Assembly (NCBI RefSeq): GCF_014930455.1
Contig: NZ_JAAIYO010000012.1
Location: forward strand, 124,001-188,000
Source: Corallococcus soli
GTDB lineage: Bacteria; Myxococcota; Myxococcia; Myxococcales; Myxococcaceae
Direction: 5' to 3'
DNA length: 64,000 nt
Shown here: in pieces, positions 18,657 through 21,614 of the stretch
Layout of the letters: each line of letters opens with the position of its first letter
Numbering within the stretch: the stretch's first letter is position 1
The notes under the pieces: model-generated
Databases searched by the model: none
Told to the model about the DNA's origin: nothing
What the model saw: the letters and a program-made list of their open reading frames with translations, nothing else
Made by a program: the position numbers and the translations under genes

Positions 18657-19184
18657 ATGGACTCGCACTACGATCAGGTGATGAAGGCGCGCGCGCAGGC
18701 GGATGCGGACGCGCCCCGGCTGTACTTCGCGTACTCGACCATCCTGGACCGGGCCGCCTTCGAGGAGTGGAAGGGCCAGCACAGCTACGGCTTCTTCGAG
18801 CTGCCGGAAGGGCGGCTGGCCGAGGCGCTGGACGTGGACCTCGTCTACGACTTCCCTTCGCGCTGGTGGGGCGGCCGGGTGGCGGGCCTCACCGACGTGC
18901 CCGGGGCACGCGTGTACGGTCGGCTCTTCGAGATCGCCGGCAAGGACTGGCCCATCGTCCAGCACAAGGAGGGCTTCGTCACCAGCATGTGCGTGGAGCG
19001 CACGGTGCGCGTGCTCGTGGACGGAAAGGAGTTGGACGCCACGGCGTTCGTGACCAACCCGCGCCGTGCGTCGTCGGACGGACCGGTGAGCCCGCGCTTC
19101 GTGGAGGCCCTGGTGCGCGGAGCCCGGAGCGCCGGGCTGCCGGCGGACTACGTGGAGAAGCTGGGCCGCGGCGAGACGCGCTGA
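18657..19184 (+). CDS. Gamma-glutamylcyclotransferase-like protein
   Basis: A 175-residue protein with the GGCT fold signature YFAYSTILD near residue 22, GARVYGRLFEI, and a Glu in IVQHKEGF at the place of the general acid/base. Family members cyclise gamma-glutamyl groups to 5-oxoproline, though many bacterial relatives have unknown substrates. AGGAGGG precedes the ATG. The gene follows the regulator by 16 bases. The codons around its stop resemble the ends of the tandem repeats that follow, as if the repeat array grew out of the gene's 3' end. Confidence 0.75.
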   Translation: MDSHYDQVMKARAQADADAPRLYFAYSTILDRAAFEEWKGQHSYGFFELPEGRLAEALDVDLVYDFPSRWWGGRVAGLTDVPGARVYGRLFEIAGKDWPIVQHKEGFVTSMCVERTVRVLVDGKELDATAFVTNPRRASSDGPVSPRFVEALVRGARSAGLPADYVEKLGRGETR

Positions 19185-19580
19185 GCACGAGACGGTTGTC
19201 GCGACCCCTCCGGCTCACGACTGCGCGGAGGGTTCCTCGTTGGGATACGGCAAGACGCGCCGAGCGCTCGGTGATGCTTGCCGCGAAGCCCCGGGCTCAC
19301 GGCTGTGTGGTGGGTTCCTCGTTGGGCTCCAGCAAGACGGGCTGAGCACTCAGGGCCGCCTGCCGCGAAGCCCCGGGCTCATGGCTGCGTTGCAGGTTCC
19401 ACGTTGGGCTACGCGAGACACGCTGATCGCAGGACGGCTTGTCGCGAAGCCCAGGCTCACGGCTGCGCGGCGGGTTGCATGTTGGATTGCGGCAAGGCGC
19501 GCTGAGCACAGGGGACTGCCTGCCGCGAAGCCCTGGGTTCATGGCTGCGCGGCGGCCCGGGCTGCTCGCTGTACGAGCGC
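19185..19580. repeat. Array of about five imperfect 80-bp tandem repeats
   Basis: The landmark CGCGA, followed by AGCC(C)C(GG)GCTCACGGCTGCG, recurs at about 19200, 19282, 19364, 19443 and 19524, a period of 79-82 bases. A second landmark, (A/G)CGC(T/C)GAGCAC, recurs at 19182, 19261, 19343, 19423 and 19503, the first copy being the stop region of the preceding gene. Each unit also carries GTTGGG..(A/G)CGGCAAG. The last unit breaks down after about 50 bases. The period is not a multiple of three, so the units do not encode a repeated peptide, and there are no unique spacers as in CRISPR. Confidence 0.8.
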
Positions 19581-20526: not shown

Positions 20527-20545
20527 GATTTCGATAATCAAAATC
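20527..20545. promoter_or_regulatory. Fur-box-like site 2 at the translation start region
   Basis: The 19 bases from 20527 to 20545 match the Fur consensus GATAATGATAATCATTATC at 14 of 19 positions. They also contain the inverted repeat TTTGATT-N5-AATCAAA (20524-20542). The site ends just before the ribosome binding site TTGGAGG, so binding there would block expression of the 20560 operon. Confidence 0.55.
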
Positions 20546-20559
20546 AATTGGAGGTCGCA

Positions 20560-20832
20560 ATGCGCGGTCAGGGATGCTGCAGGGCGGTGCTGGCGCAGGG
20601 CCCGTGCGCTGAAGTGACGCGGTGCAGTTGTGGGCACATCCACCTGGCGGTGGGGCCGGTGACGCTCCGCTTGGAGGAGGACGTCCTGCGCGCGCTGGGG
20701 CACACCGTTCTGGAGGCCATCCAGCGGCTGGAAGAGGGGGCGCACCCGGCCCACCGCGAAGCCGAGGCCTCGGAGCCGCCGGCCGCCACCGCCACCGCTC
20801 ACGGGGCGCCCAATGGCGGGTGGAAGCAGTGA
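20560..20832 (+). CDS. Small CxC protein, first gene of a probable iron-regulated operon
   Basis: A 90-residue cytoplasmic protein of unknown function. TTGGAGG lies five bases before the ATG. The N-terminal half holds five Cys and the motif RCSCGHIHLAVGPVTLRL, followed by an amphipathic helix (about 38-60) and a His/Ala/Pro-rich tail. A CxC-GHIH element suggests metal or heme binding, which is inference. Its stop overlaps the GTG start of the heme-oxygenase-like gene (GTGA), so the two are translationally coupled. Confidence 0.7.
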   Translation: MRGQGCCRAVLAQGPCAEVTRCSCGHIHLAVGPVTLRLEEDVLRALGHTVLEAIQRLEEGAHPAHREAEASEPPAATATAHGAPNGGWKQ

Positions 20833-21614
20833 GTCCTCAGGGCACGCTGCGGTGGGGTGGCATCCGCTCCGCGCGCGAGCGGCGACTGGGAGAGTCGGTG
20901 GGCTCGCCTTCCGGCACGCCGGCCCAGCCGCTGTCGGTGCGCCTGGAGGAGGGGACGGGGATTGCCCGGCGACAGGCGGAGCAGTCCACGTTCCTGGAGG
21001 CGCTCTTCCATGGCTCGTGGAACGGCGGTGTGTATGGCCAGTTCGTGCGGGCGCGGCACTACGTGAACCACCTGCGTCAGCTGCACGTCCTCTACGAGGC
21101 CTTTGAAGCCGTGCTGCCCGGGGTGAAGGATGCGGCGCTCGCGAGGGTGCTGCGGCTGCCGGAGCTGCGGCGGGCCTCGGCGCTGGCGTCGGACCTGGAC
21201 TGGTTCTGCGGCGATACGCGCACGCAGCCGTTCGCCTGCGCGGAGACGCGGCTGCACGCGGAGCGCATTCACGAGGTGGCCACGGAGGCGCCCCACCTCC
21301 TGCTCGCGCACGCCTACGCCCGCTGCGTGCTGGATCTCTTCACGGCCCCCCAGCGCGCGGACCTCGTCTCGCGGGCGTTCGAGCTGGAGGGGGTTCGTGG
21401 CGCGGCCTTCTACAACGCCGTGTCCGCCAGCGAATTGCCTGCCTTCGAGCGCCGGTTGGCGGCGCGGCTGGACGAGGTCTCCCTCGGTGAGCTGGAGTCC
21501 CAGGAAGTGGTCCAGGAAGCGCGGCTGGCGTTCCGCATCCAGGGGCTCATCTGCGACGAGCTGGCGCGAGACGCCCCCGGCATTGATGACGCGCGCGGCC
21601 CCTTCAATCCCTGA
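20829..21614 (+). CDS. Heme-oxygenase-fold protein with altered heme-site residues
   Basis: A 261-residue protein recognisable as heme-oxygenase-like from ARRQAEQSTFLEALFHG and the following helices (HLRQLHVLYEAFEAVLPG), and from LLLAHAYARCVLDLF in the distal-helix region. Compared with rat HO-1, the proximal heme ligand His25 corresponds to Arg47. Distal Gly139 and Gly143 correspond to Leu168 and Thr172, while catalytic Asp140 is kept as Asp169. It may bind heme differently, bind another cofactor, or act as a regulator rather than degrade heme. Its placement after Fur-like sites and coupling to the CxC protein point to iron or heme physiology. Confidence 0.7.
   Translation: MSPQGTLRWGGIRSARERRLGESVGSPSGTPAQPLSVRLEEGTGIARRQAEQSTFLEALFHGSWNGGVYGQFVRARHYVNHLRQLHVLYEAFEAVLPGVKDAALARVLRLPELRRASALASDLDWFCGDTRTQPFACAETRLHAERIHEVATEAPHLLLAHAYARCVLDLFTAPQRADLVSRAFELEGVRGAAFYNAVSASELPAFERRLAARLDEVSLGELESQEVVQEARLAFRIQGLICDELARDAPGIDDARGPFNP

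Follow-up and report, generated by a model that had tools for sequence, protein, structure and literature searches.

The window, that is, the whole stretch of 64,000 nucleotides of Myxococcota DNA analysed here, contains two overlapping genes on its forward strand, which from their open reading frames encode a small protein followed by a heme oxygenase (HO)-like protein. The small gene (20560..20832) encodes 90 residues, which the model folds into four beta strands and a helix, with the motif CSCGHIH at residues 22-28 (20623-20643). An earlier note on this DNA had described just such a protein ahead of a protein of HO fold, and it is present as claimed. The second gene, a pseudo-heme-oxygenase gene (20829..21614), has a GTG start and encodes 261 residues. 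The stop of the small gene and the start of the HO-like gene share the four nucleotides GTGA (20829..20832, forward strand), in frame. The same 4-nt in-frame overlap was found at all 23 junctions that we read, as GTGA in 22 and ATGA in one, with HO-like frames of 236-273 residues. The translational coupling proposed earlier is thus backed by the position of the two genes. The small protein ends in WKQ in 23/23 adjacent pairs aligned and in WEQ in one genome (G029). The DNA that encodes WKQ, TGGAAGCA, followed by GTGA or ATGA, doubles as the overlap with the HO-like gene, and the seat of the WKQ constraint may be the DNA rather than the protein. A Fur-like operator, GATTTCGATAATCAAAATC, lies on the forward strand at 20527..20545 (G000:C12:144527-144545), 14 bases 5' of the small-gene ATG. 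The upstream gap also holds an imperfect tandem array (window positions 19162-19550) with a period of about 80 nt, in which a 27-nt core is present in five copies at spacings of 79-82. Promoter and terminator scans of the locus each returned none, and there were no Rfam matches.

The HO-like protein matches the Pfam family Heme_oxygenase (PF01126) with 90.7 bits against a cut-off of 23, and solved heme oxygenases are matched by sequence with a best E value of 5.9e-19. NCBIfam has no name for this protein or for the small protein. The AlphaFold model of the HO-like protein, made with 23 sequences (mean pLDDT 83.3), matches heme oxygenases with VIA Z up to 26.9 and an rmsd of about 2.1 A over about 210 residues, and the structure alignments give the protein 23-28% identity with the closest solved HOs among the matches listed. 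The Pfam score and the model fold match both support the retention of HO fold signatures. In the structure alignment residue 32 falls on residue 10 of HO-1, which places Arg47 (codon 20967-20969, forward strand) at the position of HO-1 His25. In an alignment on the motif HAYxR..GDLSGG, Leu168, Asp169 (codon 21333-21335, forward strand) and Thr172 fall on HO-1 Gly139, Asp140 and Gly143. Sequence and model therefore agree with the earlier assignment of Arg47 in place of the proximal His, of a retained catalytic Asp169, and of Leu168 and Thr172 in place of the distal glycines. In addition, Ala211 replaces HO-1 Arg183 and Glu40 replaces Lys18, and besides Asp169 the window protein keeps Tyr89, Arg165, His161 and Glu93, the equivalents of Tyr58, Arg136, His132 and Glu62. 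The earlier note had allowed for a proximal His elsewhere in the helix; in the window protein there is no alternative, the proximal helix (residues 35-51) being free of His.

A pseudo-HO has the HO fold and lacks the conserved His, and the window protein has this combination. The proximal His, Gly139 and Gly143, and Arg183, by which a biliverdin-producing HO is recognised, are all missing from it. According to the excerpted text of PMC5623701, His25 is the heme ligand and is fully conserved in HOs, the H25A and G143H forms of HO-1 are inactive, and D140A becomes a peroxidase. Structures of the HO-1 H25R mutant, one of them with biliverdin bound, are among the matches to our model. Without the ligand of the heme iron, Gly139 on the distal side and Arg183, which binds the porphyrin, the window protein is expected from sequence and model to be unable to cleave heme in the classical way.

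To place these residues among relatives we used an HO alignment of 54 rows, of which 46 are of the pair type (from 44 of 62 pseudo-HO genomes, plus two named records), four are canonical, three are of the BphO type and one is a further degenerate HO (G028). Among the pair-type rows the proximal residue is Arg in 24, His in seven, Ala in six, Leu in four, Val in four and Thr in one, and the His ligand is thus lost in 39/46. None of the 46 has Gly139 or Arg183, and 37/46 are without Gly143; Asp140 is kept in 41/46. The four canonical HOs of the same bacterial family all keep His, Gly139, Asp140, Gly143 and Arg183. The equivalents of Tyr58, Arg136 and Asp140 (Tyr89, Arg165 and Asp169 in the window protein) are present together in 37/46 pair-type rows. 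Nine rows of an Archangium type keep Gly143 and lose Arg136, with Asp140 in only four of the nine, and the 37 rows outside the Archangium type are without equivalents of Lys18 and Arg183.

All 16 rows from the window's own genus, Corallococcus, have Arg at the proximal position, and seven Myxococcus-group orthologues have His at the aligned position. A tree of all 54 rows implies at least 12 changes of the proximal residue, and on it the seven His-bearing Myxococcus-group rows nest inside non-His groups. Long branches meet in this tree (BphO with the Archangium-type group), which leaves its deep joins unsure; the drift among Myxococcus-group rows is independent of these joins. A fixed, selected proximal Arg is ruled out by the drift on the tree. 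Since Arg is found in 16/16 rows of the genus and the tree shows drift beyond it, we regard the residue as fixed in the window's genus and the position as free to change in the family. The earlier description of a 'rewired' active site does not hold, as the position drifts among Arg, His, Ala, Leu, Val and Thr. G028 encodes a degenerate HO of another kind (L120:4656-5285), with Trp at the proximal position and the distal motif gone; the small gene was not detected in that genome.

We also considered erosion of the cleft, of which there was no sign: in 37 rows, the 32 positions assigned to the cleft have a mean entropy of 0.77 versus 0.90 at 172 others, with 4034 of 5000 random sets as high, so that the cleft varies no more than other positions do. 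The median dN/dS of the HO-like gene is 0.32 in a set of the window and 10 Corallococcus-group rows and 0.43 in nine Myxococcus-group rows, and the Pfam-matched stretch is stop-free in 16/16 same-genus genomes. Judged by these sequences, purifying selection acts on the HO-like protein, which we class as a bacterial pseudo-heme-oxygenase.

A search of 96 genomes of Myxococcaceae with the HO-like query gave a match in 66. Three of these with a canonical HO (G114, G118 and G020) and the one with the degenerate HO (G028) were left out, and the remaining 62 pseudo-HO genomes all carry the small gene, versus at least 6 of the 34 other genomes of the family. With G028 counted, the small gene accompanies 62/63. 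The two genes are adjacent by their coordinates in 56 of the 62; in the six genomes of one genus they are far apart or on different contigs. A genome survey of the two-gene unit had been proposed earlier as a check, and in this survey both genes are present in each of the 62 pseudo-HO genomes. The co-occurrence is confounded by descent, and for the unlinked genus linkage offers no explanation. A contig scan with two strict peptide patterns gave 25 loci, in records of Myxococcota or of unplaced Deltaproteobacteria MAGs and in one named Comamonas. This last record, Comamonas sp. KCTC 72670 (L144; BNCN01000001.1), carries the pair and groups with Myxococcus, and is probably a mislabelled myxobacterium. 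Among the genomes surveyed, retention of the pair extends across soil bacteria that form fruiting bodies.

The small protein belongs to a family of which no scanned member scored above the Pfam or NCBIfam cut-offs. We found the family in at least 75 of 195 Myxococcota genomes searched, at most 28 candidates being scored per genome, so that absences are not firm. In 13 of those 75 genomes the small gene is present without a pseudo-HO of the pair type. Of seven genomes outside the bacterial family that carry the small gene, PF01126 is matched in one (G136), by a canonical protein with His and GDLSGG. No relatives of the small protein were found on plasmids at E values up to 1. The model of the small protein has four strands and a main helix, with residue blocks 11-60 at 93-98 pLDDT. 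Its fold matches are weak (best VIA Z 4.1, rmsd 2.8, 58 residues) and include PUR, COMM and PC4 among others; Foldseek gave no match under an E value of 0.001 among the folds listed. The PC4, PUR-alpha and COMM-domain folds have a strand-helix arrangement like that of the small protein, but a Z of about 4 is not evidence of kinship. The motif CxCGHxH is invariant in 23/23 adjacent pairs aligned and is not kept in the unlinked genus, nor in all family members outside adjacent pairs. C22 and G25 are near-invariant in the family. The variation of C24, H26 and H28 outside adjacent pairs rules out a universal CxC metal site in the small protein. The median dN/dS of the small gene is 0.42 in the Corallococcus-group set and 0.33 in the Myxococcus-group set, with one pair at 1.75.

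We viewed 18 small-family loci without an adjacent HO (L052-L054, L105-L116 and L192-L194, with Pfam-scanned neighbours at L108, L110, L112, L113 and L114). Five of the 18 adjoin iron genes, namely fur, flavodoxin, imelysin (two loci) and HmuY (in one genome of the unlinked genus); at the other 13, no iron gene was seen next door among the neighbours viewed. In two distant Myxococcota genomes a cluster of imelysin, di-haem oxidoreductase, imelysin and HTTM genes (L108:1892-6946 and L110:1008-6045) is headed by a small-family gene with a Fur-like operator. All four cluster genes were checked with Pfam in one genome and the first two at L110, where the last two were assigned by eye.

The Fur-like operator GATTTCGATAATCAAAATC has 14/19 matches to the Fur consensus. 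At the window locus, where a second Fur-like stretch lies upstream, the site scored is the one at 20527-20545; of the Fur-like sites that the earlier note placed ahead of the pair, this one is real. Of 59 distinct small genes, 55 have a stretch with at least 12/19 Fur-consensus matches within 160 nt around the start, compared with 27 of 1686 control windows; the four genes without such an operator are at L106, L107, L114 and L125. In the unlinked genus a Fur-like operator of its own precedes the HO-like gene in 6/6 genomes, and the small gene has one in all four promoters read. A degenerate form of the operator pattern, allowing up to one mismatch, has six sites in the window's own 9.4 Mb genome, and its reversed control has none. 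The five sites other than that of the pair adjoin genes for HmuY; Peripla_BP_2 with FecCD; imelysin with DUF5122; a TonB-receptor plug/TonB_C; and ribosomal protein S4. The site that precedes the S4 gene (L182; G000:C1:1426783-1426801) might be controlled by Fur or by another metalloregulator. Co-occurrence with HmuY was tried as a test and proved uninformative, HmuY being present in 82/96 genomes of the family. The operators strongly suggest iron control of the pair, which is apparently switched on when iron is scarce, and Fur is the regulator that we infer from them. Excerpts of PMC9973013 state that in M. xanthus under iron starvation the isc and suf operons are controlled by RisR alone, and that E. 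coli also uses Fur on isc/suf. Because the M. xanthus operons are under RisR alone, the reach of Fur in myxobacteria needs testing.

Among the closest solved relatives of the HO-like protein, by sequence and by model, are Corynebacterium HmuO and Leptospira HO, in both of which the His ligand and the GDLSGG motif of the distal side are present; the window protein has neither. Both of these enzymes are linked to iron supply. The window's genome also encodes a BphO-type HO (G000:C1:1013162-1013731) of the same Pfam family (46.9 bits), which differs from the HO-like protein in keeping HH and an LGGQ distal motif and which lies on a separate branch of the tree. For Arabidopsis HO2, a published pseudo-HO, we know of no Fur-type control or small partner gene. 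HO2 has the same Arg at the His position as the window protein, but it is located in the chloroplast and its part in photomorphogenesis is undefined, and Plasmodium PfHO, like the window protein, has an HO fold, no His ligand and replacements of the distal Gly-Gly (both from excerpts of PMC11634067). The same excerpts describe PfHO as having lost HO activity and having another role in the apicoplast; this protein of a eukaryotic organelle is 15-20% identical to known HOs (PMC11634067), whereas the myxobacterial protein has 23-28% identity to the closest solved HOs listed and a Fur-like operator. A literature search that covered few subscription papers found no description of the bacterial pair. 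Pseudo-HOs themselves are already known, and what this pair adds is a new setting and a partner family without a name.

We give about an even chance to the reading of the pair, from sequences and models, as an iron-starvation module in which the HO fold would be non-catalytic and the complex would handle a tetrapyrrole or dock on a partner. In Myxococcaceae both genes would be repressed by Fur and induced by iron starvation, so that the pseudo-HO and the small beta-sheet protein would be produced together. They would form a complex that binds or senses a tetrapyrrole (heme, a porphyrin or a breakdown product), or that docks on another protein, in the setting of heme/siderophore iron scavenging. 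The complex, its ligand and its role are what we infer for the pair. We favour a non-catalytic protein because the ligand is lost in 39/46 rows and Gly139 in 46/46 and yet the protein is kept, and because it is tied to the small protein and an iron-type operator with a cleft no more variable than the rest. Observations that count against this reading include the degenerate HO of G028, the operator site at the S4 gene, the 13/18 loci without an iron neighbour, the seven orthologues with a proximal His, and the confounding of the co-occurrence by descent. A rather doubtful alternative makes the HO-like protein a pure protein-protein adaptor or regulator that holds no tetrapyrrole, the small protein being the active partner and the HO fold its carrier. 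This would fit the wider distribution of the small gene (at least 75/195 Myxococcota genomes, 13 of them without a pair-type pseudo-HO) and its presence in all 62 pseudo-HO genomes. The absence of Lys18 and Arg183 equivalents from the 37 rows outside the Archangium type also fits, as does Arg236, which at least 95% of the 46 rows carry at a position occupied by Glu in the four canonical ones. A pure adaptor sits less easily with cleft positions that are not more variable than the rest and with the several ring-contact residues that remain. We think it very unlikely that the protein is a metal-dependent (dimetal) oxidase. Heme-oxygenase-like diiron enzymes share the HO fold, and iron control would suit such an enzyme, but the columns at least 95% conserved in the 46 pair-type rows hold no Asp or His that is new relative to the four canonical HOs, the comparison being with those four. 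The only such Glu is Glu112, an ordinary HO residue that varies among the canonical rows, one of which has it, as do solved HOs. Furthermore, the structure matches listed (50 per list) are all heme oxygenases. The earlier proposal of an undescribed iron or heme system thus stands as to an iron-related unit, for which we found no description, and finds no support as to the metal-dependent oxidase.

The retained residues leave room for heme chemistry of some kind. The proximal His in seven orthologues and the Tyr58/Arg136/Asp140 trio in 37/46 rows make it possible that the HO-like protein has some heme chemistry; nothing found in these sequences points to heme degradation by a different chemistry. 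An unlikely form of this idea is a working heme oxygenase that holds heme and releases its iron with a replaced or borrowed iron ligand, which could be water, a solvent base, or a Cys or His of the small protein. The same trio, the lack of erosion at cleft positions, an operator pattern common to an HmuY gene and the CxCGHxH on the small protein in 23/23 adjacent pairs aligned would all suit it, and the title of a work cited in PMC5623701 states that exogenous bases restore the activity of the His25Ala mutant. On the other hand, the Gly139 and Arg183 equivalents are lost in 46/46 rows, the proximal helix of the window protein has no His to offer, and the unlinked genus has not retained CxCGHxH. 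That the HO-like gene is decaying and functionless, as the loss of several active-site residues could indicate, is hardly credible given a Pfam-matched stretch without stops in 16/16 same-genus genomes, median dN/dS of 0.32 and 0.43, and the conservation of the operator and the 4-nt overlap. More speculatively, and we think improbably, the small CxCGHxH protein might complete or gate the cleft of the ligand-less HO fold in a Fur-controlled heme-handling system. If this were true, the unit deployed under iron starvation, a split one that carries heme, senses it or releases its iron, would resemble no heme oxygenase described so far.

The cellular roles of the pseudo-HOs of plants and malaria parasites are described as largely unknown in the excerpted text of PMC11634067. 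For the presumably non-catalytic HO fold of the myxobacteria there are a partner gene, a probable regulator and genes of heme/siderophore uptake that probably share its regulon. Deletions are in use in M. xanthus, according to excerpts of PMC9973013, and gene removals are feasible in Myxococcus and Corallococcus, which would make an HO fold without heme chemistry directly testable. The pair also brings out a small, apparently iron-starvation-related protein family that is present in at least 75 of 195 Myxococcota genomes and whose scanned members match nothing in Pfam or NCBIfam.
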